A DNA stretch of 64,000 nt from Porphyrobacter sp. ULC335 (GTDB taxonomy: Bacteria > Pseudomonadota > Alphaproteobacteria > Sphingomonadales > Sphingomonadaceae), in contig NZ_CP078091.1 in the NCBI RefSeq assembly GCF_025917005.1, positions 3,224,001 through 3,288,000 of the forward strand, written 5' to 3'. This document shows positions 12,821 through 42,155 of the stretch, one piece after another (the stretch's first letter is position 1; each line of letters opens with the position of its first letter). Both the position numbers and the translations under genes were made by a program. The notes below the pieces were generated by a model that was given only the letters and a program-made list of their open reading frames with translations, ran no database searches and had not been told where the DNA came from.

Positions 12821-14605
12821 TCAGTGGTTATGCCGCGGCAGCTTCCTTGCCGTGCCGCGATATTTGAGCGCGAAGTCCATCACGCCCCCTTCCGCCAGCT
12901 GGCCGGTCTTTTGGCGGTAGAGTTCTTCCCACGGGGTCTGGCTTTCGGGGATCGGCGGGATGGTCTCCTCCGCGCGGCGGCGGGCGATCTCCGCTTCGTC
13001 CACCAGCGCGTCGCAGCGCCTGGCGTTGAGATCGACGCGGATGATGTCGCCGGTGCGCAGCCATGAAAGCCCCCCGCCGACCGCGCTTTCGGGGCTGACG
13101 TTGAGGATTGATGGGCTGTCGCTCGTCCCCGATTGCCGCCCGTCACCCAAAGTCGGCAGCCACGGCTTGCCAGCGCGGATCATCGCATCTGGCGGCTGCA
13201 TGTTGACGACCTCGGCACTGCCCGGCCAGCCGATCACGCCCGATCCGCGGATCACGAGAATGCAATCCTCGTCGATAGCGAGCGCGGGATCGTTGATGCG
13301 GTGATGGTAATCGTCCGAGCCGTCGAAGACGATGGCCCGCGCCTCGAACACGCCCTCGGAGCCGGGGCGCGAAAGGTAGCGTTCGCGGAAGGCTGTGCCG
13401 ATTACGCTGGTCTTGAGGATCGCGAAATCGAACAGGTTGCCCGACAGCACCATGAAGCCCGCCTTGTCGATCAGCGGATCGGCGAAGGGCCGGATCATCT
13501 CGCGGTCAGGGCTTTCGGCACCTGCAAGGTTTTCAGCCATCGTCTTGCCGGTGCAGGTCACAATATCGCCGTGGAGCTTGCCCGCGTTCAGCAGTTCCCA
13601 CATCGCCGCAGGCACGCCGCCCGCGCGGTGAAAGCGTTCGCCCAGATACTTGCCCGCAGGCTGCATGTTGACGAGCAGCGGCACATCATAGCCATGCGCC
13701 TGCCAGACATCGGTTTCGAGGCTCACACCCGCATGCGCCGCCATCGCCATGATGTGCGGCTGTGCGTTGGACGATCCGCCGATGACGCTGACCGTGGCAA
13801 TCGCATTCTCGAAAGCGGCGCGGGTGAGGATGTCCGAGGGCTTCAGATCCTCCAGCACCATCTCAACGATCCGGCGTCCGGTGCGATAGGCCATCTGGCC
13901 GCGCTCCCGGTAAGGCGCGGGGATCGCCGCGCAGCCGGTGAGCGAGAGGCCCAGCGCCTCGGCCACCGCGTTCATGGTGCTGGCCGTGCCCATCGAATTG
14001 CAGTGCCCGGCAGAAGGCGCGCTGTTGCAGGCGCGCTTCAGGAATTCATCCTCGTCGATCTCGCCCGCCGCCAGCTTGCGGCGGCTGCGCCAGATGACGG
14101 TGCCGCTGCCGACCAGCTCGCCTTCGTGCCAGCCATCGAGCATCGGGCCGCCCGACAGGACAATCGCGGGAATATCGACCGTGGAGGCCGCCATGATCTG
14201 GCTCGGCGTGGTCTTGTCGCAGCCGGTGGTCAGCACCACCCCGTCGAGCGGATAGCCGTTCAGCAGCTCCACCAGCCCGAGATAGAGCAGATTGCGGTCG
14301 AGTGCGGCGGTCGGCCGGCGGCAGTTCTCGAAGATCGGGTGGACGGGGAATTCGATCGGGATGCCGCCCGCATCGCGGATGCCGTCACGCGTGCGCTTTG
14401 CAAGGTCCACATGGATGCGGTTGCAGGGGGAAAGGTCGCTGCCGCTTTGCGCGATGCCGATGATCGGCTTGCCGCTTTGCAGCTCCTCGGGCGTCACCCC
14501 GTAATTCATGAAGCGTTCGAGATAGAGCGCCGTCATGTCCATGCGTTCGCGGTTGTCGAACCAGTCGCGCGAGCGCAGGCGGCGGGGTGCGGCTTGATCG
14601 GTCAT
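12821..14605 (-). CDS. xylD: D-xylonate dehydratase (IlvD/Edd family)
   Basis: A 594-residue dehydratase that should convert D-xylonate to 2-keto-3-deoxyxylonate, the third Weimberg step. The three cysteines expected to hold the iron-sulfur cluster are Cys61 (LSPCNRIH), Cys129 (TTGCDKTTPS) and Cys202 (GHCNSMGTAST). The Mg-binding and substrate region GSSNAQPHIMAMAAHAG and the C-terminal SPSILNVSPESAVGGGL are present. The length and the variant GHCNSMG loop fit the pentonate dehydratase branch better than dihydroxyacid dehydratase (IlvD). The start overlaps the stop of the LacI regulator by 4 bases, so regulator and dehydratase are co-transcribed. It converges on the esterase gene. Confidence 0.87.
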   Translation of the reverse strand: MTDQAAPRRLRSRDWFDNRERMDMTALYLERFMNYGVTPEELQSGKPIIGIAQSGSDLSPCNRIHVDLAKRTRDGIRDAGGIPIEFPVHPIFENCRRPTAALDRNLLYLGLVELLNGYPLDGVVLTTGCDKTTPSQIMAASTVDIPAIVLSGGPMLDGWHEGELVGSGTVIWRSRRKLAAGEIDEDEFLKRACNSAPSAGHCNSMGTASTMNAVAEALGLSLTGCAAIPAPYRERGQMAYRTGRRIVEMVLEDLKPSDILTRAAFENAIATVSVIGGSSNAQPHIMAMAAHAGVSLETDVWQAHGYDVPLLVNMQPAGKYLGERFHRAGGVPAAMWELLNAGKLHGDIVTCTGKTMAENLAGAESPDREMIRPFADPLIDKAGFMVLSGNLFDFAILKTSVIGTAFRERYLSRPGSEGVFEARAIVFDGSDDYHHRINDPALAIDEDCILVIRGSGVIGWPGSAEVVNMQPPDAMIRAGKPWLPTLGDGRQSGTSDSPSILNVSPESAVGGGLSWLRTGDIIRVDLNARRCDALVDEAEIARRRAEETIPPIPESQTPWEELYRQKTGQLAEGGVMDFALKYRGTARKLPRHNH

Positions 14606-15738
14606 GGGCTCCCGGGGGGCTTGCTGAAGGATGAGGCGAGGCTGGGCCCCGCATCGGAATTGCGGCGGATCAGCTGGTAGGCGAGCGTCAGCTGCTCGGC
14701 CTTGGCACGGGTGGCGCGCGGCTTCTGCTTGTGGACGCGGGCGATCATGGCGACGGCCTCGGCGGTCATCTCGCGGATCGGCTGGCGGATGGTGGTCAGC
14801 TCCGGCCAGATCGAGCTGGCAAGTTCCGTATCGTCGAAACCGCAGACCGTGATGTCGTTCGGCACGTCGAGATGGCGGCGGTGCGCCATGGCAACGGTGG
14901 CGGCGGCCATGTCGTCGTTGGAGGCGAAGATCGCGGTTGGCGGGTGCTTGGCGCCGAGCAGCTTCTCGGCAGCGACCATGCCCGAACGATAGGTGAACTG
15001 GCCCTGCGCGATCAGGCTCTCGTTGATCGTCAGCCCGGCGTCAGTCATCGCCGCGCGGTAGCCTTCGAGGCGCTGGCCGCTGGCCACCTGTTCGGGGTTG
15101 CCGATGATGAAGCCGACGCGTTCATGCCCCAGGCTGATGATGTGCCGGGTCATGTCATAGGCGGCCTGAAACTCGTCGATCAGCACCGCGCCGTGGCTGC
15201 CGCTGGCCCGGCCGGGGCCGACCGCGACCGCAATCCCGCCGGAGGAGCGGATCAGATCGAGCACGCTCTGGTCATCGCACAGCGGCGGGGGGAGGATATA
15301 GCCCTCGATCCCGCCGTCGAGCAGCTTCTTGATCACCTTCTGCGCCTCGGCGGTGTTCTCGCAGGCCTGCACCACGAGGTAGATGTCGCGGCGGCTCGCC
15401 TCCTCCAGCGCGCCCATCAGGAATTCGCTGAGGTAGGAGGCAGACGGGTTGTCGAACAGCAGGGCGATGCGCAGCTGCGATCCCGCCGCGAGCGATCGTG
15501 CCGCGCGGTTGGGGACGTAATTGAGCTTGGCAATCGCGCCGAGCACCTTCTGCTTGGTGTCCTCGCGCACGTTCTCCTCGCCATTGATGACGCGGCTGAC
15601 GGTCATCGGCGAACACTGCGCCTCGCGGGCGACATCGGTGATCGTCGGCGCGGCATTGCTGCGGCGGGCGGCGCGCTTGCGGCTCTGGGTGGCCGGTTCG
15701 GCCCTGGTCAGGTTGGTTCTGCTCATAGGCCCGGCCAT
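14602..15738 (-). CDS. xylR: LacI/GalR-family repressor of the xylose/xylan regulon
   Basis: A 378-residue transcription regulator. A LacI helix-turn-helix spans about residues 31-55 (TITDVAREAQCSPMTVSRVIN), followed by the hinge helix (NYVPNRAARSLAAGSQ) and a periplasmic-binding-protein-like sensor domain that ends near residue 340. The N-terminal 30 residues are basic and probably disordered. It should repress in the absence of xylose or a pathway intermediate. The palindromes with core TAGCGCTA at 1341, 7994, 15878, 23088 and 31824 are the obvious target sites. Operator C lies 140 bases upstream, so it may regulate itself. The start may also be the ATG at 15726 (MSRTNL); neither has a clear ribosome site. 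It overlaps xylD by 4 bases. Confidence 0.85.
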   Translation of the reverse strand: MAGPMSRTNLTRAEPATQSRKRAARRSNAAPTITDVAREAQCSPMTVSRVINGEENVREDTKQKVLGAIAKLNYVPNRAARSLAAGSQLRIALLFDNPSASYLSEFLMGALEEASRRDIYLVVQACENTAEAQKVIKKLLDGGIEGYILPPPLCDDQSVLDLIRSSGGIAVAVGPGRASGSHGAVLIDEFQAAYDMTRHIISLGHERVGFIIGNPEQVASGQRLEGYRAAMTDAGLTINESLIAQGQFTYRSGMVAAEKLLGAKHPPTAIFASNDDMAAATVAMAHRRHLDVPNDITVCGFDDTELASSIWPELTTIRQPIREMTAEAVAMIARVHKQKPRATRAKAEQLTLAYQLIRRNSDAGPSLASSFSKPPGSP

Positions 15739-19698: not shown

Positions 19699-22600
19699 CT
19701 AGAAGTTGCCCCGCAGGATGAAGGAGAAGCGCCGGTCGTTCATGAAGAACGAACGCGGGGCCAGCACGCCGGGATCGCCGGTATAGGCCTGTGTCGTCCG
19801 CGTCACTTCGTCGAGCAGGTTCACCCCTTGCACGCCGACCCGGATATTCTTCGTTACGTTGAAGAAGATCGATGCGTCGAGCTGCCCGGTCGACTCGTTG
19901 AAGATCGAGTAGAACGGGAAGATCACATCCGCCGGGGTCAGCAGGAAGCGCGATCGCCAGTTATAGGCGGCCCGCAGGCTGATCGGCCCCTTCTCGTAGA
20001 AGATCGTCGCGTTCACATTGTGCTTCGATAGCTGTTCGAGCGGCAGGTTGCCCGGCGGGACAGTGGACTGGTCCACCGGCTCGCCCGTGTTGAGGAAGGT
20101 GTTCGGCAGGCCTTCGCTTTCGATGAAGGTGTAGTTGGCGGCCACCCCCAACCCGTCGAGCGGCTTGGGCAGGAAGTCGTAGGTCTGCTGATAGGCGAGT
20201 TCGAAGCCCTTGATCTTGCCGTTCTCTTCGAAGTTGGCCGGACCGCGCACCAGCACGTCGCGGGTAATACCGTTGCTGGTGATCTGCCGGGTGAAGATAT
20301 CCTGGAAGAAGAAGTCCTTGATGTCCTTGTAGAAGGCATTGAAGGTCAGCGATCCGACCGGCGCGAAGTACCATTCGATGCTGGCATCGAACTGCCATGC
20401 CGTAGCCGGGCGCAGGAAGGGATTGCCGGCGGTCGCGGTCAATTCGCTGCCTTCCAGACCGATCGTCAGGAAGTTGCGGATATTGGCATTGTCGGGCCGG
20501 GTCATGACCTTCGACGCGGCCAGCCGGACAATCACATCCTCGGAAACCCCGAGTTTGAGATTCATGCTGGGCAGCCAGAAATCATAGTTCACATCGGCAA
20601 TGTCGCGCGCCCCGCCACTATCCAGCGTCCCGTTTCCGGCAAAGGTCTGGAGCTGGGCATAGCCCTGCGGCCCGAGGTTGCAGACCCCGCCCGGGGTCGT
20701 CGGCAAGGTGCCCGGAGGGGCACCGATCGGGACACCGGCCGCGCAGCGCACGCTGAACGGCTCAAGGATATTCAGCGCCTGCTGGCTCGGAACGCCGACG
20801 GTGCCTTCGGAACGCACTCTGGTGTTGACGTAGCGCACGCCGATGTTGCCCGACAGGCGCATCGACCCGAACACATTATCGGCGCCGAATTCCAGTTGCA
20901 GGTAAGCGGCCGAATCCTGCTGTGCGAGCGGCTGGATATCCTCACGGAGGAACGGCGTACCGGCAATCGCACCCTGCCGGCCGGACAGCGGCACCCACGA
21001 CGGCGTGCTGCCAAGCGAGCGGGAAATGGCCTGCACCGACTGGAAGTCCGCAATCGCGCCTTCGTAATCGCCGATCAGATCGCCCGCGTAGTAGAACCCG
21101 CCCGGAGGCCCGGCGACAGCGCCGCGGAAGAAGTTCGGGAATTCATACCGCTCGGACAGTTCGGCAGGGGTGTCGGCGAAATTGGTCGGACGCGAACCGG
21201 ACCACACCTCGCTCAGCATGCCCCAGTTGTAGGTGGTGTAACGCACCGTCTGTTCGCGATCCTGATAGCGCGCGCCCCACTTGGCCCGGCGCAGGAAGGA
21301 ATCGTCATCGAATTCATAGGCGAGATCGGCCTGGAAGGCATATTGCGTGCCTTCGCTGTCCTCGATGTGATCCATCGCGGCGCGCCAGAACTGGAAGCGC
21401 GGATCGCTGAAATACTGCTCATCGGTGGCCCCGGCCAAGGCTGCGCCCGGCGTCGACCAGTTATAGCCCAGGAACTGCGGCTTGCGCGGAATGATCACCG
21501 GCAAATCGCCAGAAATGTCGAGCTCCTGATCGGCAAATGACGAGCCGAACACGCTGAAATCGAGGTTTTCCTTGCGCGAGGTCGCGTATTGCGCGTCGAG
21601 CTCGATCGTCAGACGATCGGTCAGCTCGGTGCGCATGTTGATCGAGTAGTCCTCGTTGGTGACCTCGTCATTGACCTGACGGCGCGCCAGCGATTGCTGC
21701 AAGCCGCCAATCGGCACGAACGGCGAAGCACCCGGATCGCCGCGCCAGCCATTGTTGGTGTTGACGATATAGCCCGACTGGAACAGCCCGGTGTCGTCAT
21801 AGATGAAATCGGTGAACCCGCCGACCGGGCACTGCGCGCGCGACGTGGGGTCGCCCAGCACGTTGCCCGGATTGATCCGGTTCGGGCCATCGGCATTCTG
21901 CAGGCAGCCGACCGGATAGGTGGTGTACTCCGCCTGATCGGGCGCGGTTTCGAAGGTGTATTCGCCCCACTTGTTGGTCGAGGCAGAGCGGATGAATTCC
22001 GCAGTGATCAGGGTCTTTTCGTCGATCGATTCGAACTGCGCGGACACGGCAAGGCCGTTACGCTCGCGGTCGAATTCCTGCGTGCGGAACTGCCCGCCGA
22101 CCGGCGCGACGCGCGAGGCGGCGTAATCGGCAAAGCCATCAGCCCCGGCAGCCCCGAAATTGCCGCACTGCGCACCGCCGCCCGGCAGGGTGAAATTGTC
22201 GGTCGTTCCCGGCAAGGGATTGCGGCACACCCGCACACCATCGGCATTGGCCGCGGCCACCAGCTGGCCATCGCGGGTCTGATAGTTGGCAACCTGCAAG
22301 CCATCGGCGCGGCTCTTGATCCGCGAATAGGAACCGCTGACCAGCAAGCCGAAGCGGCCCTTGTCGGTATCCCAGGTGTTGCTGATCAGGCCCGACAGCG
22401 TGGGCGTCCATTCCTTGCGGAAATCGCCGTAATTGGCCTCGGCGCTGAACGCGATCTTGAAGCCGTTATTGTCGAACGGCTTGCGGGTGTTGAGATTGAC
22501 CGTGCCGGCAAGGCCGCCTTCGATCATTTCGGCGGTCGCGTTCTTGCTGATGATGACCGAGCCGAGCAGTTCTGCGGGGACATCGGCGAAGTTCAGTGCT

Positions 22601-23073
22601 TGCCCGCCCACCCCGGCGGAGAAGGCCGAACGCCCGTTGAATTCCGAACGCACGAAGTTGAGCCCGCGCACCACCACGCCCGAACCTTCGACCGAGAAGT
22701 GATCGGGATCGTTCGAACCGGCAAAGCGGTTGATGGCAACGCCGGGCACGCGCTGAAGCGCTTCGGTCACCGAACGGTCGGGAAGCGCGCCGATATCCTG
22801 CGCGGTGATCGCGTCGACCACGGTGTCGGCGTCACGCTTCAGGCTCTGCGCGTTGGCGAGCGATTGGCGCAGACCGCTGACGATGATTTCGTTGGTGGGT
22901 TCTTCGACCGGAGTGGTGACTTCCGGTTCTTCCTGCGCATCTTGCGCGATGACCGCGCTGGCGCTGATCGCGCTTCCGACAACCAGTGCCGAAGCCCCGG
23001 CGCGCAAGACGCTTTTAAGCCAAGGCTTCTGGCGCCCCGCCCGAACGCCATGGTGCTGCATCGAAGTGCGCAT
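19699..23073 (-). CDS. TonB-dependent outer-membrane receptor for xylan/xylo-oligosaccharides
   Basis: A 1124-residue TonB-dependent transporter of the large glycan-type class. A long signal peptide (about 1-40) is followed by a TonB box (NEIIVSG), a plug domain (ALQRVPGVAINRF...VVVRGLNFV...LNTRKPFDN) and a beta-barrel ending in the aromatic-terminated strand FSFILRGNF. It should import xylo-oligosaccharides into the periplasm, where GH3, GH43 and GH10 act; the substrate is inferred from the locus. The start is the ATG at 23073, which has GGGAGGG 5 bases upstream; an earlier in-frame ATG at 23088 falls inside operator D and is unlikely. No SusD-like partner is present, as usual in Proteobacteria. 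Divergent from a halogenase operon. Confidence 0.9.
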   Translation of the reverse strand: MRTSMQHHGVRAGRQKPWLKSVLRAGASALVVGSAISASAVIAQDAQEEPEVTTPVEEPTNEIIVSGLRQSLANAQSLKRDADTVVDAITAQDIGALPDRSVTEALQRVPGVAINRFAGSNDPDHFSVEGSGVVVRGLNFVRSEFNGRSAFSAGVGGQALNFADVPAELLGSVIISKNATAEMIEGGLAGTVNLNTRKPFDNNGFKIAFSAEANYGDFRKEWTPTLSGLISNTWDTDKGRFGLLVSGSYSRIKSRADGLQVANYQTRDGQLVAAANADGVRVCRNPLPGTTDNFTLPGGGAQCGNFGAAGADGFADYAASRVAPVGGQFRTQEFDRERNGLAVSAQFESIDEKTLITAEFIRSASTNKWGEYTFETAPDQAEYTTYPVGCLQNADGPNRINPGNVLGDPTSRAQCPVGGFTDFIYDDTGLFQSGYIVNTNNGWRGDPGASPFVPIGGLQQSLARRQVNDEVTNEDYSINMRTELTDRLTIELDAQYATSRKENLDFSVFGSSFADQELDISGDLPVIIPRKPQFLGYNWSTPGAALAGATDEQYFSDPRFQFWRAAMDHIEDSEGTQYAFQADLAYEFDDDSFLRRAKWGARYQDREQTVRYTTYNWGMLSEVWSGSRPTNFADTPAELSERYEFPNFFRGAVAGPPGGFYYAGDLIGDYEGAIADFQSVQAISRSLGSTPSWVPLSGRQGAIAGTPFLREDIQPLAQQDSAAYLQLEFGADNVFGSMRLSGNIGVRYVNTRVRSEGTVGVPSQQALNILEPFSVRCAAGVPIGAPPGTLPTTPGGVCNLGPQGYAQLQTFAGNGTLDSGGARDIADVNYDFWLPSMNLKLGVSEDVIVRLAASKVMTRPDNANIRNFLTIGLEGSELTATAGNPFLRPATAWQFDASIEWYFAPVGSLTFNAFYKDIKDFFFQDIFTRQITSNGITRDVLVRGPANFEENGKIKGFELAYQQTYDFLPKPLDGLGVAANYTFIESEGLPNTFLNTGEPVDQSTVPPGNLPLEQLSKHNVNATIFYEKGPISLRAAYNWRSRFLLTPADVIFPFYSIFNESTGQLDASIFFNVTKNIRVGVQGVNLLDEVTRTTQAYTGDPGVLAPRSFFMNDRRFSFILRGNF

Positions 23074-23087
23074 AAGATCCCTCCCCA

Positions 23088-23101
23088 TGTTAGCGCTATC
23101 A
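23088..23101. promoter_or_regulatory. XylR-type operator D at the TonB-receptor gene
   Basis: TGTTAGCGCTATCA (plus strand) has the TAGCGCTA core and lies 14 bases before the receptor start, overlapping its 5' leader. The divergent halogenase operon starts 140 bases away on the other side, so it could be affected too. Confidence 0.75.
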
Positions 23102-23241: not shown

Positions 23242-24804
23242 ATGTCTGGGATCAATGGTATCGGTAACGCGGGCCGCCTTGCGCGGGTCGTCATTGTCGG
23301 CGGGGGCACCGCCGGATGGATGGCGGCCGCCGCGCTGTCGCGCTTCTTCAACGATGGGCGGCGCACGGTCACATTGATCGAATCCGACGCCATCGGCACG
23401 GTCGGCGTGGGCGAGGCGACCATCCCGCCAATCCGCAACTTCAATGCAATGCTCGACATTCCCGAGGCTGAATTCCTGCGCGAGACGCGCGGCACCTGCA
23501 AACTGGGTATCGAGTTCGTCAACTGGGGCCGGCAGGGTGATCGCTATTTCCACCCCTTCGGCGAATTCGGGCAGGACCTCCACGGCATCGCCTTCCACCA
23601 GCTGTGGCTGCGCGAACAGGCCCGCAGCGGCACCGCAGCAGGCGGAATCGGCGATTATTCGATGAGCACGGCGGCGGCACGCGCTGGCCGATTCGCGCGC
23701 CCCGCGGCAGGCGCGCAATCTGTGGTACGCGAGATCGCCTATGCCTACCACTTCGATGCCGGGCTCTACGCCGCCTACCTGCGCCGCCTAGCCGAACGCC
23801 AGGGCGTCACCCGGATCGAAGGGCAGATCACCAATGTCACCCGCGACGGCGAGAATGGCGATGTCGCCAGCGTGACGCTCGACAATGGCACCACCGTTGC
23901 GGGCGATCTGTTCATCGATTGCTCGGGCTTCCGCGGGTTGCTGATCGAGGAAGCGCTGGAAACCGGCTACGAGGACTGGAGCCGCTGGCTGCCGATGAAC
24001 CGCGCGCTGGCCGTACCGTCCCGCTCGCCCGGCCCGCCCGATCCCTTCACCCGCGCCACCGCGCACAGCGCCGGGTGGCAGTGGCGCATCCCGCTGCAGC
24101 ACCGCACCGGCAACGGGCATGTCTATTCAAGTGGCTTCATGGAAGAAGAGGCGGCGCGCGACATTCTGCTCGCCCATCTCGAAAGCGAACCGCTGGCCGA
24201 ACCGCGCGGGCTGAAGTTCCTCACCGGAATGCGGCGCAAGGCATGGAACCACAATGTCGTGGCGCTCGGGCTGTCGTCGGGCTTTATCGAGCCGCTCGAG
24301 TCGACTTCGATCCACCTTATCCAGAACGGCATCGCGCGGCTTTTCGCGCTGTTCCCCGACCTGCCGATCCGTCCGGTGGAGCGCGACGAATACAACCGCG
24401 GGATGCGCGAATTGTTCGAGGATGTGCGTGATTTCATCATCCTCCACTACAAGGCCACGCAGCGCGAGGATTCGGAATTCTGGCGCTATGTGAAGCACAT
24501 GGACGTGCCCGACAGCCTCTCGCGCAAGATGGCGCTGTGGCAGCACCGCGGGCGGGTGTTCCGCGAAAATGCCGAACTGTTTTCCGCGCCCAGCTGGATC
24601 GCGGTGATGCTGGGGCAGAATATCTGGCCCGAAACCCATGACCCGATTGCCGACACGCTCGACGAAGGCAAGGTCGCCGCAGCCATGGCGCAGATGCGCG
24701 CCGCCTATGCCGATGTTGCGGGCAGGCTTCCCGTGCACGAGGATTTCCTGCGGCAATCAGGCAGCTGGCACGACGCCCCGCTCGTCCGGGCAGCAAACGC
24801 ATGA
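23242..24804 (+). CDS. Flavin-dependent (tryptophan) halogenase family protein 1
   Basis: A 520-residue member of the flavin-dependent tryptophan-halogenase family. The FAD loop GGGTAGWM, the catalytic Lys87 (in TCKLGIEFVNW), the WxWxIP halogenase signature (WQWRIP, 279-284) and EPLEST with Glu353-Ser354, the positions equivalent to the catalytic Glu and halide-binding Ser of PrnA, are all visible. It should use FADH2, O2 and halide to make a lysine-bound hypohalous species. The natural substrate is unknown; family members found beside TonB receptors have been shown to brominate free indoles in vitro. A ribosome site GGAGCAGG precedes the ATG. It overlaps the next gene by 4 bases (ATGA). Confidence 0.85.
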   Translation: MSGINGIGNAGRLARVVIVGGGTAGWMAAAALSRFFNDGRRTVTLIESDAIGTVGVGEATIPPIRNFNAMLDIPEAEFLRETRGTCKLGIEFVNWGRQGDRYFHPFGEFGQDLHGIAFHQLWLREQARSGTAAGGIGDYSMSTAAARAGRFARPAAGAQSVVREIAYAYHFDAGLYAAYLRRLAERQGVTRIEGQITNVTRDGENGDVASVTLDNGTTVAGDLFIDCSGFRGLLIEEALETGYEDWSRWLPMNRALAVPSRSPGPPDPFTRATAHSAGWQWRIPLQHRTGNGHVYSSGFMEEEAARDILLAHLESEPLAEPRGLKFLTGMRRKAWNHNVVALGLSSGFIEPLESTSIHLIQNGIARLFALFPDLPIRPVERDEYNRGMRELFEDVRDFIILHYKATQREDSEFWRYVKHMDVPDSLSRKMALWQHRGRVFRENAELFSAPSWIAVMLGQNIWPETHDPIADTLDEGKVAAAMAQMRAAYADVAGRLPVHEDFLRQSGSWHDAPLVRAANA

Positions 24805-26336
24805 GCGCGCCGCCCGTCACCAAGATCGTCGTCGTCGGCGGTGGCACGGCCGGATGGATGACCGCAGCCGCGATGGTGCGCGTGCTCGGCCAGATGCCGG
24901 GCCTGTCGGTCACGCTGGTCGAAAGCGAGGCGATCGGCACGGTCGGCGTGGGCGAGGCGACGATCCCGCAGATCATCGGCTTCAACCGCCTGCTCGGCAT
25001 CGACGAGATGGAGTTCATGCGCGAGACCCGCGCCACCTACAAACTCGGCATCGAATTCGTCGACTGGCTGCGGCCGGGCCATTCCTATGTCCACCCCTTC
25101 GGCAGCTTCGGGATCGACATGCTGGGGATCGATTTCCAGCACTTCTGGCTGCGCGGGCAGAGCCTGGGCGATACTTCGCGGATCGATGATTATTCGATTG
25201 CGGCCGCGGCGGGCAAGGCTGGCCGGTTCGGCTGGCCCCGCACAGACAATCCGCGCTCGCCCATGGCGAAGCTGTCCTACGCCTTCCAGTTCGACGCGGG
25301 CCGCTATGCCCGCTTTCTGCGGCGCTATTCCGAGGCGCAGGGCGCCGTGCGGGTCGAAGGGCGCATCACCAATGTCAAGCAGGACCCGGAAAGCGGCTTC
25401 GTCACTTCGCTGGTTCTCGAAGACGGGCGCGAGGTGGCGGGCGAGCTGTTCATCGATTGCTCGGGCTTCCGCTCGCTGCTGCTGGGGCAGACGCTGGATG
25501 TGCCCTTCACGGATTGGAGCAAGTGGCTGCCTTGCGATTCCGCCGTGGCTATCCCCTGCGAGCTGGGCGGCGCGAACGAGCCGCTGACCCGCTCCACCGC
25601 GCGCCCTGCCGGGTGGCAGTGGCGCATCCCGCTCCAGCACCGCATCGGTAACGGGCATGTGTTCTCGTCGAGCCATATGGATCGCAGCGCGGCAACCGAT
25701 CTGCTGCTCGCCAACCTCGATGGCAAACCGCTCGCCGATCCCAACCAGCTTTCGTTCAAGGCGGGGCACCGGGTGCGGGCGTGGGACAGGAATGTGGTGG
25801 CGCTGGGCCTTGCAGGAGGCTTCCTGGAACCGCTCGAATCCACCTCGATCCATCTGGTGCAATCGGGCATCGCGCGGCTGATGGCGCTGTTCCCGGACAC
25901 GGGTTTCGGTCAGGTCGAAATTGACCGCTTCAACCTCGAAACCACCCGCGAATACCGCAATATCCGCGATTTTCTGGTGCTGCATTACCGCGCGAGCGAG
26001 CGCGACGATTCGGAGTTCTGGCGTTATTGCCGCAACCTCCCGCCGCCCGACAGCCTTCGGGAAAAGCTGGACCTGTTCACCAGTTCGGGTCGCATCATCC
26101 GCGAGAACAACGAGCTGTTCACCGAGGATAGCTGGCTGTCTGTCATGCTGTCGCAGGGCGTAACCCCGCAGAGCTACCACCCGGCGGCGTGGATGCTGGA
26201 TGCGGAAGAAACCCGCACCCGCCTCGCGCATATCCGCGCGGTGATCGCCCAGACGGTCGAGCAATTGCCGACGCAAGGCGAATTCCTGCAAGCCAACGGC
26301 GGAGCCATCGCGCACGAGGATTACCTCACCTCATGA
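24801..26336 (+). CDS. Flavin-dependent (tryptophan) halogenase family protein 2
   Basis: A 511-residue paralogue of the preceding gene with all family marks: GGGTAGWM near residue 13, Lys81 in YKLGIEFVDW, WQWRIP at 272-277 and EPLEST with Glu346 and Ser347. The C-terminal helical region (FWRYCRNLPPPDSLREKL...ENNELFTEDSWLSVMLSQG) matches the substrate-covering part of the family. Its residues near the signature differ from paralogue 1, so substrates may differ. It overlaps its neighbours by 4 bases on both sides (ATGA), indicating one coupled three-gene operon with the cupin-like gene. A flavin reductase is not encoded nearby and would have to come from elsewhere. Confidence 0.85.
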   Translation: MSAPPVTKIVVVGGGTAGWMTAAAMVRVLGQMPGLSVTLVESEAIGTVGVGEATIPQIIGFNRLLGIDEMEFMRETRATYKLGIEFVDWLRPGHSYVHPFGSFGIDMLGIDFQHFWLRGQSLGDTSRIDDYSIAAAAGKAGRFGWPRTDNPRSPMAKLSYAFQFDAGRYARFLRRYSEAQGAVRVEGRITNVKQDPESGFVTSLVLEDGREVAGELFIDCSGFRSLLLGQTLDVPFTDWSKWLPCDSAVAIPCELGGANEPLTRSTARPAGWQWRIPLQHRIGNGHVFSSSHMDRSAATDLLLANLDGKPLADPNQLSFKAGHRVRAWDRNVVALGLAGGFLEPLESTSIHLVQSGIARLMALFPDTGFGQVEIDRFNLETTREYRNIRDFLVLHYRASERDDSEFWRYCRNLPPPDSLREKLDLFTSSGRIIRENNELFTEDSWLSVMLSQGVTPQSYHPAAWMLDAEETRTRLAHIRAVIAQTVEQLPTQGEFLQANGGAIAHEDYLTS

Positions 26337-27349
26337 GCGCGCTGCCAGCACCCCGCCCGATGGCGGACGTCACGGGGCCGATCGATGCCGAGCGCTTCGC
26401 CGCAATCCGCGCTGCCGGGCGGCCTGTGGTGCTGCGCGGGATCGTGGCAGATTGGCCTGCGGTCGCCGCCGCCGAGGCGGGAGACGCCGCGATCGTCGCC
26501 TATCTTTGCCGCGAGGGCACATCCCGCCCCGTGGGCGCGATTGCCGCCGCGCCATCGGAAGGCGGGCGGTTCTTCTACACGCCCGATCTCACCCGGCTCA
26601 ACTTCGTGCGCGGGAACGGACGGCTGGAAGAGTTTCTCGGCGACCTGCTGGGCGCCGCGACCATGCCCGATCCGCCCGCAATGGCGGTGCAATCGGAGGA
26701 AATTGCCACCCTCCTCCCCGCGTTCGCGCGCGAAAACCAGCTGGCGCTGTTGCCCGATGTCACGGCGCGCATCTGGATCGGCAACCGCATCCGCGTCGGC
26801 ACGCATTACGATGCCAAGGAGAATGTCGCCTGCTGCGTCGCCGGGCAGCGCCGCTTTACGCTCTATCCGCCGGACCAGATCGCCGGCCTTTATCCCGGCC
26901 CGTTCGAACTGACCCCGGCGGGCGTTCCGGTCAGCATGGTCGATCCGGCCGCGCCCGATCTTGAACGTTACCCGCTGTTCGACGAGGCCGCGCGCCATGC
27001 CGAGATCGGGACGCTCGAACCGGGGGACGCGATCTACATTCCCTATGGCTGGTGGCACGGCGTGGATTCGCTCGCGCCGGTGAGCATCCTGGTCAATTAC
27101 TGGTGGAACCCGGGCCAGCCGGAAGGGGTCGCCAGCCCTTACGAAGCCCTGATCCACGCCATGCTCGCCTACCGGCACCTTCCCGATGACCAGCGCGCGG
27201 TGTGGCGGCATATCCTCGATTACTATGCCTTCGGCACCGGGGTCGATGCTTCGGCGCACCTTCCGGATCACGCCAAGGGCGTGCTTGGCCCGCCCTCACC
27301 GTCGCTGTTTGCGCAGATGAAGGCGATTATCCGGCGGGCGCTCGGTTAG
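26333..27349 (+). CDS. Cupin_8/JmjC-like protein (possible Fe(II) oxygenase)
   Basis: A 338-residue protein with a JmjC/cupin-8 fold. The core shows a HxD motif in THYDAKENVACCVAGQRRFTLYPP and the distal His in GDAIYIPYGWWHGV, which together can make the Fe(II) facial triad of FIH-like 2-oxoglutarate oxygenases. The N-terminal part (GPIDAERFAAIRAAGRPVVLRGIVADWP) is the usual docking segment of the family. The substrate is unknown; cupin_8 proteins are recurrent companions of halogenase genes beside TonB receptors, but no reaction is established that I can name. The ATG overlaps the halogenase stop. Its 3' end overlaps the convergent gene by 23 bases. Confidence 0.78.
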   Translation: MSALPAPRPMADVTGPIDAERFAAIRAAGRPVVLRGIVADWPAVAAAEAGDAAIVAYLCREGTSRPVGAIAAAPSEGGRFFYTPDLTRLNFVRGNGRLEEFLGDLLGAATMPDPPAMAVQSEEIATLLPAFARENQLALLPDVTARIWIGNRIRVGTHYDAKENVACCVAGQRRFTLYPPDQIAGLYPGPFELTPAGVPVSMVDPAAPDLERYPLFDEAARHAEIGTLEPGDAIYIPYGWWHGVDSLAPVSILVNYWWNPGQPEGVASPYEALIHAMLAYRHLPDDQRAVWRHILDYYAFGTGVDASAHLPDHAKGVLGPPSPSLFAQMKAIIRRALG

Positions 27350-28814
27350 CCGAAAGCGCCCGCGCCAACCATTCAGCATAAGGCGGCGCAAAGGCGAGTG
27401 CGGCGCGCGCCTCGCTCTCGAAAGCGGCACGCGCCCGCGCCTCTCCCGCCGCATCCTCGCCGCGTGCGGCAGGCGGCAGGCCGGGCGCCCAGCCGAGCGC
27501 CACCAGCAGCGCGAATTGCTCCTGCCCCAGCAAGGGCAGTTCCTCGCGGAAAGGGATGCGTCCGCGCCGTTCGAACTGGTCGATCACCGCCGCCCCCTGC
27601 CCGGGCACCGGCCTGTCGCCGAACACGGCCCGCGCGCCCGAAGCGGCGTAATGGAGCGCGATCACCTCGCACACGCCGTCCATCATCAGGCCCGACCTGC
27701 GGTTATACTCGGCGCGTTCCAATGGCGAGATGTCGCGGCCGGGCAGCATCTCGATCAGCAGCGCCAGCTGGCGGTGTGCCAGATCGAGGTGCAGCGGCCC
27801 CAGCGGATCGAACCGCGCGGCGGCATCTCCCAGCGCGATGATGTTGCCGATCCACGGCGCAGCGGCGCGGCCCGGGCTCAGCGCCACGGCACCCCGCAGC
27901 GACGCGCCCAGCAGCGCCTCGGCCGCGCCGCGCTCCAGCGGCGCAGCGGTGCCAAGCATGGCGTGCCGCCCGTCACGCCCCGCAACCTCGGCGAGCCAGC
28001 CGGCACTGGCAAGCGTCACCCGGTCCTCCAGCGCGATCACCGGCGCAGACGGCTCGGCCAGATAGACATGGCGGGTCGGCAAGGCGGCCGACCAGTCGGT
28101 GAAGGCAAACCGCGGATGCGCGGCGAGCAGGCTCGCCTGCGGCCCGCTGCAATCGATGAACAGATCGGCGGCGATCATGCCCTGCCCGGTCACGCCGATG
28201 GCAGCGATGGCATCGCCATCACCACTTGCGGCACCCGGCTCGATCCGGTCGATCACGCCCTGGACATAGGCAACCCCAAGCGCCTCGGCGTGCTGGATCA
28301 GCAGCGCGCGGTAGGCCCCCGGATGCCAGCGCAGCGCATAATCGACCGCCGAGATCGGGGTCGGCTCACCCGGCGGCGGCGGGGCGAAACGGCCCGCTTC
28401 GGCCAGCACCTGCGCGATGCTCCCCGCAGGCGGCGCGCCCTCCGCCAGCGGGCGAACCTTGCCCCATGCCCGCGCAAACGCGGTCTTGAGCGCCGGGTCG
28501 AGCGCCTCGCCATAGGCGGTGACGCCCTCCTGCCCTGCCCCGCCCCATCCGGCGTAGCGGGTGACGAGCCGGTATGATCCGCCCGCCTTGGTGACAATAT
28601 CTTCCTCGGCAATGCCCAGCCGGTCGTGCAGCTTGTTGGTGAAGGGCATGGCCGTGGGCGACCAGTCGGCAAAGGCGGCGGGGCTTGGCTGGGTGCCGAT
28701 CACCACCACCTCGCAGCCGGGCAAGCTGCGGCGCAAAGCGATCGCGGCAAGCACGCCCAGCTGCCCGCCGCCCACCACGACGACGCGGCGCAAAGGTGCG
28801 CGCGGCTGGCTCAC
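27327..28814 (-). CDS. Degenerate halogenase-family flavoprotein
   Basis: A 495-residue protein that aligns by eye with the halogenase family but has lost its catalytic marks. A nucleotide-binding glycine loop remains (VVVVGGGQLGVLAA), as does LFIDCSGPQASLL. The catalytic Lys position reads SYRLVTRYAGW (Arg82), the WxWxIP signature is replaced by GWLAEVAGRDG, and EPLEST is replaced by DPLGPL. It may bind FAD without halogenating, act as a partner of the active paralogues, or have another monooxygenase or reductase role. It overlaps the intact halogenase gene 3 by 4 bases and is last in the MFS-halogenase operon. The reading frame is intact, so it is probably not a pseudogene. Confidence 0.75.
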   Translation of the reverse strand: MSQPRAPLRRVVVVGGGQLGVLAAIALRRSLPGCEVVVIGTQPSPAAFADWSPTAMPFTNKLHDRLGIAEEDIVTKAGGSYRLVTRYAGWGGAGQEGVTAYGEALDPALKTAFARAWGKVRPLAEGAPPAGSIAQVLAEAGRFAPPPPGEPTPISAVDYALRWHPGAYRALLIQHAEALGVAYVQGVIDRIEPGAASGDGDAIAAIGVTGQGMIAADLFIDCSGPQASLLAAHPRFAFTDWSAALPTRHVYLAEPSAPVIALEDRVTLASAGWLAEVAGRDGRHAMLGTAAPLERGAAEALLGASLRGAVALSPGRAAAPWIGNIIALGDAAARFDPLGPLHLDLAHRQLALLIEMLPGRDISPLERAEYNRRSGLMMDGVCEVIALHYAASGARAVFGDRPVPGQGAAVIDQFERRGRIPFREELPLLGQEQFALLVALGWAPGLPPAARGEDAAGEARARAAFESEARAALAFAPPYAEWLARALSANRAPAG

Positions 28815-30337
28815 GCCGCCTCGGCCAGGCGCGCGGCTTCGCGGCGGAGATATTCGCGATGGCCGGGCATGGCCGCGACCTCGCCCGTCACCGCCATGCG
28901 CAACCGCTCGGTCGCGCGGGCGAGCGCATCGGGCGCGATCATTGCGGCGCGCGGGTCATGTGCCTCGGGCAGCATCCCCTGCCCGACATAGACCGCGATC
29001 CAGCTGGCATCGTAGAACAGCCCGTCGGAATATTTCTCGATCCGCCCCGCCCTGCGCCACAGTTCCAGCTTGGCTTCAAGGCTGTCCGGCACCGTCATGG
29101 TGCGCACGTGATTCCAGAACTCGGAATCGTCGCGGGTGGTGGCGTGGTAGTGCAGGATCAGGAAATCGCGCACCCGGTCATATTCCATGTCGACCAGCCG
29201 GTTGAATTCGTCCCGGTCGCGCGGGTCGATCTGGCCGGCTGCTGCAGGGAACAGCTCGATCAGATAGGTGATCGCCATTTGCGCAAGGTAGATCGACGTG
29301 GACTCAAGCGGCTCTAGGAACCCGCTGGCAAGGCCGACGCCGATGACATTGTGGCTCCAGGATTGTGCGCGCCGGCCGGGCCGGAACCGCAGGATGCGCG
29401 GATCGGCGAGCGGGGTGCCCTCGGCAGCGGCGCGGATCGCCGCGCAGGCCTGATCCTCGTCGATATGCGCGCTCGAGAACACATAGCCGTTGCCCATGCG
29501 GTGCTGGAGCGGGATCTGCCAGCGCCATCCGGCGGGCATGGCGGTGGCGGTGGTATAGGGGCGCAGGTCTTCGGTTGCGTGGGTGCAGGGCATCGCCGCC
29601 GCCCGGTCGCAAGGGAGCCAGTGCGTCCAGTCCTCCCACGGCACCTTGAGTTCCTGCCCGAGCAGGATCGAGCGGAAGCCCGAGCAGTCGACGAACAGAT
29701 CACCCTCGATCCGCCGCCCGTCTGCGAGCAGCAACGCGACAACATCGCCGCTTTGCGCGTCACGTTCGACGCTGGTCACCTTCCCCTCGTGCCGCTCGAC
29801 CCCGATGGTCAGACCGAATTCGCGCATGAAGGGGCCGAACAGCGTCGCATCGAACTGGTAGGCATAGCCATAGGTCGAGCCGAGGCCGTCGTCCTGCGAT
29901 GGCGGGCGGAAGCGGTTGGCCTTGGCAGCGGCGACCGCCAGCGAATAATCGCCCAGATCGCGCGCCATGCCGTGGCGGGCGAGTTCCAGCCAGTAGTGGT
30001 GGAAGCCCACCCCCGCCACTTCCTCGCCGAAGGAACCGAAGGGGTGAATGTAGCTTTCCCCGATCCGCCCGAAATCGCGGAAGTCGATCCCCAGCTTGAA
30101 GGTCGCGTGGGTGGCTTTCATGAAGGCCGCCTCGTCGATCCCGAGCTTTTCGACGAAACCGCGGATGTGCGGCAGCGTCGCCTCGCCCACGCCGACGATG
30201 CCGATTTCCTCGCTCTCGACCAGTTGGACACTGGCGAGGCCGGGGAGCAGCTTGGCGATGCCTGCGGCGGTCATCCAGCCCGCCGTGCCGCCGCCAAGGA
30301 CGACGACACGGATCGGCCGGGGTGCATCTGACGTCAT
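28811..30337 (-). CDS. Flavin-dependent (tryptophan) halogenase family protein 3
   Basis: A 508-residue halogenase-family flavoprotein. It keeps GGGTAGWM, catalytic Lys81 in FKLGIDFRDFG, the signature WRWQIP and EPLESTSIYLAQ with its Glu and Ser. The ATG at 30337 (MTSDAPRP) gives the normal family N-terminus; the frame is open to 30406, but that extension overlaps the end of the transporter gene and adds no family sequence. It starts 25 bases after the MFS stop on the same strand and overlaps the degenerate paralogue downstream. It is therefore probably transcribed with the sugar transporter from operator E. Confidence 0.85.
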   Translation of the reverse strand: MTSDAPRPIRVVVLGGGTAGWMTAAGIAKLLPGLASVQLVESEEIGIVGVGEATLPHIRGFVEKLGIDEAAFMKATHATFKLGIDFRDFGRIGESYIHPFGSFGEEVAGVGFHHYWLELARHGMARDLGDYSLAVAAAKANRFRPPSQDDGLGSTYGYAYQFDATLFGPFMREFGLTIGVERHEGKVTSVERDAQSGDVVALLLADGRRIEGDLFVDCSGFRSILLGQELKVPWEDWTHWLPCDRAAAMPCTHATEDLRPYTTATAMPAGWRWQIPLQHRMGNGYVFSSAHIDEDQACAAIRAAAEGTPLADPRILRFRPGRRAQSWSHNVIGVGLASGFLEPLESTSIYLAQMAITYLIELFPAAAGQIDPRDRDEFNRLVDMEYDRVRDFLILHYHATTRDDSEFWNHVRTMTVPDSLEAKLELWRRAGRIEKYSDGLFYDASWIAVYVGQGMLPEAHDPRAAMIAPDALARATERLRMAVTGEVAAMPGHREYLRREAARLAEAA

Positions 30338-30362: not shown

Positions 30363-31781
30363 TCAGCCCACCATCTCCTCCAGCTCCTTGCCCTTGGTTT
30401 CGACAATGAAACGCTGGACGAGGAAGAAGCTGATCACCGCGCATACGGCGTAGAAGCTGTAGCTTGCGGCAAGCCCGATGCCTGCCGCCATCAGCGGGAA
30501 GGATTGGGCGATGAGATAATTGGCGAACCACTGGAAGAAACCCGCCACCGCCAGCGCCGATCCGCGAATCTGGTTGGGGAACATCTCGGCCAGCATCACC
30601 CACATCACCGGGCCCCAGCTGACGTTGAAGAAGATGACGTAGAGGTTGGCCGCCACAACCGCCGTCGTGCCGAGACCGGCGGAGAGCACGAGGTTACCGC
30701 TCGCATCAAGGCTGCCCTGGCCGAACACGAACACCATGACGAACAATGCCGCTGCCATGCCCGCCGATCCGATCAGCAGCAGCGGCTTGCGCCCCACCTT
30801 GTCGATCACCGCGATCGTCACAAAGCATGCCGCAATCGAAACCGCGCCCGAGACAATGTTGATGAGCAGCGAATCCGCCTCGGTAAAGCCCGCCAGCTGC
30901 CACAGCGTTGAGCCATAATAGAAGATGACGTTGATCCCGACGAGCTGCTGGAACACCGCCAGCATGATCCCCACCCACACGATCGGGCGCATCCCGAGCA
31001 AGCTCTTGGTGCCAGGAGGCGCGAGCACATCGGCAAGGCGGGGCTTGTGATCCTGGGAAAAGCTGGCGCGGATTTCTTCCAGCTTGGTTGCAGCTTCGCC
31101 TGAACCGAACAGGTCGGTCAGCACCTTGGCAGCCTCGTCAAACCGGCCCTTGGCCACCAGATAGCGCGGGCTTTCCGGAATGAAGAACAGCGCGCCAAGG
31201 AAGATGGCGGCGGGCAAGGCCTGCATCAGATACATCCAGCGCCACGCTGCGATCCCGCCCCACAGGGCTGCGGTCGAATCTCCCGCCACTCCGGCCAGCA
31301 CGTAATTGACAAGGAACGCCAGCGTCAGGCCGGTGATGATCATGATCTGCTGCACCGTGGTCATCCGACCGCGAATATTGGCAGGGGCGACCTCGGCGAT
31401 ATAAGCGGGTGATAGCACGCTCGCTGCGCCCACGGCCATGCCGCCTGCGATACGCGCGATGACGAACATCACGTGGCTTTCGGTTAGCCCCTGCACTAGC
31501 GCACCGGCCAGAAACAGCAGCGCGGCGACACGCATGACGTTGCGCCGTCCCATCTGGTCCGCCAGCGTGCCGGCAAAGAACGCGCCGATGAAGCAGCCGA
31601 TCAGCAGCGAACCGACGGTGAAGCCCAGTCCGCCCTCGCTCAGGGCGAAGGCCGCCTTCAGCCCCGGCTGCGTGCCGTTCACCGCCCCGCTGTCATAACC
31701 GAACAACAACCCCCCGATCGTCGCCACAGCCACGATCGCCGAAATCAGCACCATATTGGCGCCGCCACGCGTTGTATCCAA
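30363..31781 (-). CDS. MFS sugar:H+ symporter (XylE-like)
   Basis: A 472-residue inner-membrane transporter with 12 predicted transmembrane helices of the sugar-porter family. Visible family motifs are ADQMGRR, RIAGGMAVGAASVLSPAYIAEVAP, PESPRYL, a QQLVGIN helix-7 segment, KVGRKPLL and MLAEMFPNQIRG. It should bring D-xylose from periplasm to cytoplasm for the Weimberg enzymes; glucose or arabinose are alternatives. The longest start is a TTG with GAGAGGG just upstream; an ATG at 31754 (MVLISA) would remove nine residues. Operator E lies 43 bases upstream. It is followed by two halogenase-family genes in the same direction. Confidence 0.87.
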   Translation of the reverse strand: MDTTRGGANMVLISAIVAVATIGGLLFGYDSGAVNGTQPGLKAAFALSEGGLGFTVGSLLIGCFIGAFFAGTLADQMGRRNVMRVAALLFLAGALVQGLTESHVMFVIARIAGGMAVGAASVLSPAYIAEVAPANIRGRMTTVQQIMIITGLTLAFLVNYVLAGVAGDSTAALWGGIAAWRWMYLMQALPAAIFLGALFFIPESPRYLVAKGRFDEAAKVLTDLFGSGEAATKLEEIRASFSQDHKPRLADVLAPPGTKSLLGMRPIVWVGIMLAVFQQLVGINVIFYYGSTLWQLAGFTEADSLLINIVSGAVSIAACFVTIAVIDKVGRKPLLLIGSAGMAAALFVMVFVFGQGSLDASGNLVLSAGLGTTAVVAANLYVIFFNVSWGPVMWVMLAEMFPNQIRGSALAVAGFFQWFANYLIAQSFPLMAAGIGLAASYSFYAVCAVISFFLVQRFIVETKGKELEEMVG

Positions 31782-31823: not shown

Positions 31824-31837
31824 TGGTAGCGCTACCT
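31824..31837. promoter_or_regulatory. XylR-type operator E between transporter and xylA
   Basis: TGGTAGCGCTACCT matches the consensus palindrome except for the last base. It sits in the 126-base gap between the divergent transporter operon and xylA. For xylA, TTGCTA (31797-31802) and TATGGT (31822-31827) could be -35 and -10 boxes with 19-base spacing, the latter covered by the operator. Confidence 0.8.
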
Positions 31838-40206: not shown

Positions 40207-41343
40207 TCAGCCGACTGCGCTGAAGTCGAGATCGCGCGCTGTGAAGACGCGGATCGGCTCGCCCATGCGCACGCGGATGGTGGGGCTGATCTGGCCCTGC
40301 GATTGCACCGCCGAATTGGCCGCACCCTGCGCCCCGCCCGCCACGATCACGCCGCCGACACCGCCGGTCGCCAGCGCGCCGAGGCCGCCGACGACCGAGA
40401 GCAGCAGGCCCGAACCGAAGCGTTTGAAGAAGTGGCTGTTGACGTCACCCTCCAACCCCGTCGCCCCGTCAAAACCGACCGCGGGCGAGGCAAGGTTGAC
40501 CGATACGCCATCGGGCCGGATCAGCCGCGTCCAGATCACATAGGCACGGCGTTGGCCCTGCTGCACGCCCGCCTGATACTGCCCGATCAGGCGCGAGGAG
40601 CGCGGGATCAGCACGCGCTTGCCATCGAAGCTGCGCACGTCCTGGCTCACCACGGCGCGGACATAGCCCGGCACATCGGTGTTGATCGCGGTTTCGAGGA
40701 TCGCGGGGATCAGCGTGCCCTCGGTCACGGTGGTCGAGGGATTGGTCATCGCGCGGGCCTGCGCGGGCGCGCCGCCAACCCCGCCAACGCGGCTGGCAAA
40801 TGCCGAAGCGCCGCCCGCTCCCGCGACTTCGGCGCCGGGCGTGCCGGGCGGCACACCGATGGGCGCCTCGGCACCGCGAATGCTGCGCGCCGAGCTGGCA
40901 TCGAAGACCAGTTGCGGGCTGGCATAGGGATTGATCGCCGCGCCGGGGCTCATGGCCGGGTTGCCGGAATAGATCGGCATGGGCGCAGGATCGACCGGCG
41001 GCACCACCGGCACCGCGCCGGGCACCGTCGCCGGATCGACCGGCTGCACCACCACGGGCGCGGCGGCGGCTTGCGGCGGGGCGACGGCGGTGTTGCCGAT
41101 GCCCTGCGGATCGGGCGTGCGCGCGGCGTTCATCGCCCAGAACGTCACCGCGCCCAGCAGGCCGACCACCGCCACGCCGGCAGCGAGGCCCAGCCCGTCA
41201 CCCTTGGCCTTGCGGTCGGTAACCGCCGGAAAGGCCGCACGGCTCGCCAGATCAATGATTTCAGCGGACTCGCGCTCGCGCGGATCGCCCTCGGCAGAAC
41301 TGCCCTCGCCCTTCTTCGGCGGCAAACGCATGGCCAGACGCAT
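40207..41343 (-). CDS. virB10: VirB10 T4SS scaffold protein
   Basis: A 378-residue protein spanning both membranes: a short cytoplasmic part, one transmembrane helix (LGLAAGVAVVGLLGAVTFWAM), a Pro/Ala-rich periplasmic stretch (about 65-120) and the conserved C-terminal beta-barrel domain (GTLIPAILETAINTDVPGYVRAVVSQDVRSFDGKRVLIPRSSRLIGQYQ...IRVRMGEPIRVFTARDLDF). With VirB9 it forms the core channel. The ATG overlaps the virB9 stop (TGATG). A longer open frame reaches 41574 but that part is virB9 coding in another frame. Confidence 0.92.
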   Translation of the reverse strand: MRLAMRLPPKKGEGSSAEGDPRERESAEIIDLASRAAFPAVTDRKAKGDGLGLAAGVAVVGLLGAVTFWAMNAARTPDPQGIGNTAVAPPQAAAAPVVVQPVDPATVPGAVPVVPPVDPAPMPIYSGNPAMSPGAAINPYASPQLVFDASSARSIRGAEAPIGVPPGTPGAEVAGAGGASAFASRVGGVGGAPAQARAMTNPSTTVTEGTLIPAILETAINTDVPGYVRAVVSQDVRSFDGKRVLIPRSSRLIGQYQAGVQQGQRRAYVIWTRLIRPDGVSVNLASPAVGFDGATGLEGDVNSHFFKRFGSGLLLSVVGGLGALATGGVGGVIVAGGAQGAANSAVQSQGQISPTIRVRMGEPIRVFTARDLDFSAVG

Positions 41344-42155
41344 CAGTTGGACTCCCTTGCAGGCTTGGCAATATCGAGCCCCGCGCTGCGCGCGGCAGGC
41401 TTCATCGGGCCGGTGTTGGTGAGCGTCGCAGTCTCGCGGCCGGAGCGCAGGATGATCTGCGCGGGCACCCCGTCGACCACCACGGTATCGCCGCGCACGG
41501 TGTAATTGACCGGGCCTTCGTCGCCATCCTCGTTGGTCACCAGAATGGCTGGAATGGAAATGCCCTGTGGCCATGTCAGGAACACCGCATCGCCATCATC
41601 AAAGGCCCGCGTGGGGAGCAAGGCGGGCGTTCCGGCGGTGGCCCAGGCATAGTTGATCTGCGCGGGATCGTTGACCGCATAGGGGTCAGACGCGGCAGCC
41701 ATCTCGACCGGATCGGCGGCGGCACGCAGGGCCTGCGCCTCGGCCTCGGCGATCGCCGCGAGCCGCGCTTCCTCGGCCGCCTTTTCCAGCTCGGGATAGC
41801 GGAATTGCAGCACGTAAAGCGCTGAATTTCTTGGCGACGCCACCAGTTCGAACAGGTAGGTGCGCTTGTCCGTCACCACCGTCATGTTGGTGCGCGCTGC
41901 CGGATCGAGCGGCTTCACGAACAGGATCGTCTGCGCCTTGTTCGGCTGCACTTGCCATGCGGCGGAATCGCCGATCGCGACATTCTCGATCACTTCGTCG
42001 GGGGCGAACTTGATGGTGGTCTGGACCTTCACCTTGCCATCGATCCGGACCACGGCGTTCTCGTCAAACACGAGCGTTTGCAGGCGGTTATCCTGCGCGG
42101 CGGCGGGAGCCGAAAGCGCAAGGGCAAGCGCGGCGAGCATCACGGCGCGGGTCAT
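41343..42155 (-). CDS. virB9: VirB9 T4SS outer-membrane-complex protein
   Basis: A 270-residue secreted protein with signal peptide (residues 1-20, ending SAPAAAQ). The N-terminal domain shows TTIKFAPDEVIENVAIGDSAAWQVQPNKAQTILFVKPL and TNMTVVTDKRTYLFEL, the C-terminal part FLTWPQGISIPAILVTNEDGDEGPVNYTVRGDTVVVDGVPAQIILRSG; both are VirB9 hallmarks. Normally VirB9 pairs with the small lipoprotein VirB7, for which no gene is seen here. It overlaps the virB6 stop by 4 bases and the virB10 start by one. Confidence 0.92.
   Translation of the reverse strand: MTRAVMLAALALALSAPAAAQDNRLQTLVFDENAVVRIDGKVKVQTTIKFAPDEVIENVAIGDSAAWQVQPNKAQTILFVKPLDPAARTNMTVVTDKRTYLFELVASPRNSALYVLQFRYPELEKAAEEARLAAIAEAEAQALRAAADPVEMAAASDPYAVNDPAQINYAWATAGTPALLPTRAFDDGDAVFLTWPQGISIPAILVTNEDGDEGPVNYTVRGDTVVVDGVPAQIILRSGRETATLTNTGPMKPAARSAGLDIAKPARESN

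Follow-up and report, generated by a model that had tools for sequence, protein, structure and literature searches.

The substrate of the tryptophan halogenase MibH is a lanthipeptide precursor. MibH and other peptide tryptophan halogenases resemble the enzymes described here in their open site and in the proposed acceptance of peptide-bound tryptophan, but they are distant in sequence, and no lanthipeptide precursor gene of the MibH type was seen at this locus. Much closer are BrvH and Xcc4156, which have solvent-open active sites, do not use free tryptophan and have been proposed to act on peptides; the native substrates of both are stated as unknown (PMC5945002, PMC7336383). Free indole is brominated by BrvH in vitro, weakly, and a second halogenase gene adjoins the BrvH gene (PMC5945002). 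The catalytic residues of BrvH and Xcc4156 are the same as those of HalA, one of the halogenases of the present locus, but the enzymes here are inherited with one receptor clade each, the dead member of the set included.

The CUT loci of Xanthomonas and Caulobacter group a TonB receptor with glycoside hydrolases, an inner-membrane transporter and a regulator, as the present locus does, and xylose-induced receptors with a conserved palindrome have been described for them (PMC1790865). The present locus differs in its halogenases, which are absent from the text of PMC1790865. Among the openly readable papers searched, none was found that connects halogenases of this kind with TonB receptors.

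Gene organization and the xylose regulon

The window analysed, a stretch of 64,000 nucleotides, contains an oxidative xylose regulon with a LacI regulator, a xylonate dehydratase, a dehydratase of the FAA-hydrolase family, an SDR, an aldehyde dehydrogenase and glycoside hydrolases of families GH3, GH5 and GH43. Three intact halogenase genes, one degenerate paralogue and a JmjC/cupin-like gene lie between the TonB receptor and the sugar transporter (Table 1), as stated in the original prediction. Its description of the two transcription units was also borne out: HalA, HalB and the cupin_8 gene are joined by ATGA overlaps on the plus strand, and HalD and HalC, on the minus strand, belong to the transporter unit behind operator E. 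The gap between the transporter and HalD is 25 nt, and the three genes of this unit form a single tight array. All four proteins of the halogenase family score above the curated PF04820 cut-off of 21 bits in the profile search. Elsewhere in the window, three neighbouring ORFs (41343-45792, minus strand) resemble the type IV secretion genes VirB9, VirB6 and VirB4 by eye.

Table 1. Coordinates of the regulator, receptor, halogenase, oxygenase and transporter genes and of two operators in the window
Feature	Position	Strand	Details
LacI-family regulator, presumed XylR	14602-15738	-	PF00356 and Peripla_BP_3
TIGR01782 TonB receptor ORF	19699-23088	-	Likely start codon at 23073, behind GGGGAGGG
Operator D, XylR-type palindrome TGTTAGCGCTATCA	23088-23101		Receptor promoter, divergent receptor/HalA intergenic region
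HalA, flavin-dependent halogenase	23242-24804	+	PF04820, 645 bits; closest solved structure BrvH, 6FRL
HalB, flavin-dependent halogenase	24801-26336	+	PF04820, 623 bits; ATGA overlap with HalA
Cupin_8/JmjC-like 2-oxoglutarate oxygenase	26333-27349	+	PF13621, 208.5 bits; ATGA overlap with HalB
HalC, dead halogenase paralogue	27327-28814	-	PF04820, 165 bits
HalD, flavin-dependent halogenase	28811-30337	-	PF04820, 598 bits; stop overlaps HalC start
MFS sugar transporter	30363-31781	-	PF00083, 373 bits; first gene of the transporter-HalD-HalC unit
Operator E, TGGTAGCGCTACCT	31824-31837		Upstream of the transporter-HalD-HalC unit

Five intergenic sites of the window carry the palindrome TGGTAGCGCTACCA. 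Since a genome-wide search (3.6 Mb) for TGKTAGCGCTAYCA, allowing up to one mismatch per strand, gave no match outside these five sites, the operator palindrome is far from a chance occurrence. The sites in the receptor and transporter promoters are kept in relatives with an orthologous locus, wherever those stretches were retrieved. The regulon was assigned to the XylR type (the Caulobacter kind) from its LacI regulator, oxidative xylose genes and shared palindrome. The predicted co-regulation with the xylose genes is well supported by comparison with relatives for HalD and HalC, because the operator sites recur there. For HalA, HalB and the cupin gene, control by operator D is plausible only, because HalA lies 140 nt away from this operator, compared with ~15 nt for the likely receptor start (23073).

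Catalytically complete halogenases and a conserved dead paralogue

The catalytic lysine (K79 type), the catalytic glutamate (E346 type) and the WxWxIP motif are all present in HalA, HalB and HalD, which are thus catalytically complete and look active. Of the halogenases that were scored in the genus-level loci, 92 keep the same three features. A PDB search with HalA returned BrvH (6FRL), 9LUQ and Xcc4156 (6Y1W) as the best solved relatives, all matched over the full length with 509-519 bits. Because the alignment of HalA with BrvH is free of gaps through BrvH residues 432-444, the stretch that replaces the tryptophan-covering loop and is described in PMC5945002, HalA is expected to have an open substrate site as in the BrvH/Xcc4156 group.

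In HalC, the catalytic lysine is replaced by arginine and the catalytic glutamate by glycine, and both the WxWxIP motif (WLAEV- instead) and VGEATIP are lost; the same changes are found in every relative examined. Judged from these residues, HalC is a halogenase-fold pseudoenzyme and not a halogenase. Its AlphaFold2 model (pLDDT 87) has the halogenase fold, with BrvH as the best PDB match (TM 0.83). The HalC reading frame is open in all but one relative examined, and its dN/dS among close relatives is 0.22, compared with 0.09-0.14 for the active halogenases and 0.15 for the receptor. HalC is under purifying selection. The original prediction called this paralogue degenerate, which is accurate for its catalytic site but not for the state of the gene, as HalC is conserved. 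A decaying pseudogene was considered and ruled out by the open frames, the purifying selection and the recurrence of dead paralogues, although the frame is split in one relative. In that relative (G022), HalC (L113:12041-13493) is divided into two overlapping ORFs, as is the second starch-type halogenase (L114:12578-14102); in each case, the split is either a real frameshift or a sequencing error.

Dead paralogues stand beside active halogenases in more than 20 distant loci of Alpha- and Gammaproteobacteria, including those of Sphingomonas, Caulobacter, Asticcacaulis, Oceanicaulis, Gilvimarinus, Cellvibrio, Aestuariibacter and Aliiglaciecola, usually in the order active-dead-active(-active). 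In the tree, 31 of the 33 dead proteins cluster together, separate from the active halogenases; the active genes located immediately before a dead one make up a group of their own, the class to which HalD belongs. A single origin of the dead halogenases is likely rather than proven, because long branches may help to pull the dead proteins together. The arrangement in the window is a rearranged cassette, with HalD-HalC shifted behind the transporter.

Association of the halogenases with glycan receptors

The genome contains 11 PF04820 genes, which are all located in four loci, and each of these loci has a single TIGR01782 receptor. The receptor of the window matches the TIGR01782 model with 636.8 bits (cut-off 310), and the other three linked receptors of the genome also match. 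The first locus is the xylan locus of the window, with three complete halogenases, the dead HalC and the cupin gene. The second (L013:5041-16849) is marked by genes for a ROK regulator, a ROK kinase and an MFS sugar permease, and beside its receptor it repeats the whole cassette: three complete halogenases (of the HalD, HalA and HalB types), a dead one of the HalC type and a cupin gene. The third, of the GH16/GH3 beta-glucan type, contains one halogenase, and the fourth, with an amylase and an alpha-glucosidase (starch, GH13), contains two.

A sample of 29 genomes at genus and order level contained 96 intact halogenases in 52 clusters, and a TIGR01782 receptor adjoins 50 of these clusters. The halogenases without an adjoining receptor are contig-end fragments (G006:C150, G011:C268) and one isolated gene (G005:C1:1241922). 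In the same genomes, 48 of the 98 TIGR01782 receptors are without an adjacent halogenase. Sugar genes or regulators were found at 47 of the 50 halogenase-linked loci versus 9 of the 43 loci of related receptors without a halogenase, which upholds the expected link to sugars rather than to random receptors. The association extends further afield: of the 56 distant halogenase loci that had complete flanks (Alpha-, Beta- and Gammaproteobacteria), 52 contain a TIGR01782 receptor. Close matches of the present locus to loci of Erythrobacter/Porphyrobacter (L226, L235, L236) suggest that its host belongs to, or is closely related to, the Erythrobacteraceae.

In the receptor tree, the halogenase-linked receptors form one clade in which all members are linked (32/32), and into which the window receptor falls, a second such clade (17/17), and two singles outside; the other groups are unlinked. 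Neighbouring halogenases were also found for all 22 close relatives of the receptor in 21 other genera of the family; these relatives came from family-level sampling, and receptor-based sampling of the whole class gave 2 of 115 genomes. The halogenase tree mirrors the receptor groups, with HalA, HalB and HalD each having its own sister in the glucose-type locus and with the glucan- and starch-type halogenases as groups of their own. Distances between receptors and between their nearest halogenases are correlated with a Mantel r of 0.88 (maximum over 2000 permutations 0.215). The permutation leaves the within-group species relatedness uncorrected, but the main signal lies between paralogous groups in the same genomes.

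This comparison shows the BrvH-type halogenases as near-obligate, co-diversifying companions of two glycan-receptor clades, independent of the sugar, and the larger set (HalD, dead HalC, HalA, HalB) as an old cassette that has co-diversified with its receptor. Such linkage and co-diversification amount to functional dependence, not to an enzyme-substrate relation. On this view, the sugar regulators control the cassette because they control the receptor.

Two further arrangements were observed. A third receptor group (L088, L108, L120) is accompanied by three active halogenases and one short dead halogenase (345-400 aa), with no recognised sugar gene nearby. Some TIGR01782 receptors without a halogenase are adjoined by a phytase gene (L135:8023-9072 and seven similar loci); the receptor family is therefore not confined to sugars.

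Candidate target site and possible roles

A [N/T]W-x6-W motif (WGxxSxxW in the window receptor) is invariant in all 32 receptors of the first clade, within an otherwise variable loop, and is found in one receptor of each of 17 distant cassette loci (17/17). It is present in none of 46 unlinked receptors and none of 17 starch-type receptors. In the window receptor, the motif corresponds to W622/W629 (ORF numbering), at the start of a long loop (618-717) that follows strand 599-617 in the AlphaFold2 model (mean pLDDT 80). The loop is predicted to be extracellular, because the other end of this strand is a short turn. As a modification site the motif is a lead, and it could equally be a glycan-binding surface. 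There is no single shared target site, because the starch-type receptors are equally linked but lack W-x6-W; these receptors must use another target. Glucan-type receptors carry the motif with only one halogenase. No tryptophan or tyrosine common to all linked receptors and missing from the unlinked ones was found, and no N-terminal target common to both linked clades was seen. Linked receptors contain 10-16 tryptophans each, compared with 3-8 in unlinked receptors. Tryptophan invariance was also considered as a general sign of linkage and set aside; it was not clearly above the level expected from sequence similarity, and thus only the loop motif was kept as a lead.

The joint inheritance of the halogenases with receptors for several sugars suggests that the enzymes work on the receptor and not on products of xylan breakdown. 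We infer that their substrate is either the receptor or a component that strictly accompanies it. The genes may well constitute a receptor-dedicated maturation module rather than a pathway for xylan aromatics, a reading that we hold tentatively from the comparison of sequences. Of the targets named in the original prediction, a receptor or surface component is favoured, since the presence of halogenases follows the receptor clade and not the sugar.

Unlikely, by our estimate, is a target other than the receptor within the envelope machinery used for uptake by this receptor class, such as a TonB/ExbB variant, a surface lipoprotein or a glycan. It would explain why both receptor clades have halogenases without a common tryptophan site, but no recurrent extra envelope gene is present in all linked loci, and a shared substrate serving the whole genome would not predict locus-specific halogenase orthologues. 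It is distinctly unlikely that the halogenase product is a diffusible small molecule, a halogenated indole for example, released as a signal or deterrent upon glycan sensing, although BrvH brominates free indole weakly in vitro (PMC5945002) and TonB receptors can take part in signalling. The one-to-one co-diversification is with a receptor protein, no recurrent biosynthetic or export genes were found among the neighbours, and a single small product would not readily account for the presence of several different halogenases in a locus.

The profile search also gave weak matches to the models of QhpG and LodB, which are FAD proteins required for the maturation of peptide or protein substrates, and a 2-oxoglutarate oxygenase is often encoded nearby (cupin_8 here, DUF6445 in starch loci). 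The weak matches also speak for a maturation module. Both observations would fit flavin monooxygenases of the QhpG/LodB kind whose action on a protein side chain is hydroxylation or crosslinking instead of halogenation; however, the halogenase lysine, glutamate and WxWxIP motif are kept in all intact proteins and the closest characterized relatives brominate, and we regard this reading as improbable. Very improbable is the originally proposed action on xylan-derived or lignin-like aromatics (ferulate, coumarate, lignin fragments), in detoxification or catabolism. The genes do belong to a complete xylose/xylan regulon whose operators are conserved, but one-to-one orthologues of the cassette, the dead one included, accompany a glucose/glucan-type receptor in the same genome, related halogenases occur with starch (GH13) and GH16 beta-glucan receptors, whose glycans are without aromatics, presence tracks the receptor clade and not the sugar, and none of the scanned locus genes was identified as one for the catabolism of aromatics.

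In a receptor-dedicated maturation module, the halogenases would be cytoplasmic, as FAD enzymes with no obvious export signal. The substrate admitted by their open active sites would be a polypeptide, and most likely the receptor precursor ahead of its export; tryptophans such as those of the invariant W-x6-W motif, in the loop predicted to be extracellular, are candidates for the modified residues. HalC may assist HalD, HalA or HalB as a non-catalytic partner, by holding the substrate or presenting it to them; this role, and a contact between HalC and HalD, are purely conjectural. The FIH-like oxygenase would modify that substrate in a second way. The module would be expected to influence how the receptor loop binds glycan, folds or is protected, and the sugar regulon would set the timing only.

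If the module reading is right, proteobacterial glycan uptake includes an overlooked step of receptor maturation. The search for substrates of BrvH/Xcc4156-type enzymes is narrowed to glycan receptors and components that strictly accompany them, with the W622/W629 loop as a candidate site, and the conserved dead halogenase points to a heteromeric enzyme complex. The most specific proposal, that the enzyme set, with the ancient pseudo-halogenase as an obligate partner, post-translationally halogenates (and perhaps also hydroxylates) tryptophans of outer-membrane glycan receptors before export, is somewhat unlikely as a whole; if true, it would provide the native function of the large orphan family of BrvH-type halogenases and, for Gram-negative envelopes, a protein modification of a new kind.

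In the cupin_8 protein, the HxD...H iron ligands (GTHYD ... WWH) are intact, and the PDB search matched it to FIH and JMJD5. The iron site is the feature that it shares with JmjC protein hydroxylases of the FIH/JMJD5 type, but the homology is limited to the catalytic core. In 14 starch-type loci (L014; L080:11556-12299, plus strand), a DUF6445 (PF20043) gene is located between the receptor and the second halogenase. Its sequence displays an HxD...H pattern as in 2-oxoglutarate oxygenases, in parallel to the cupin_8 gene of the window.
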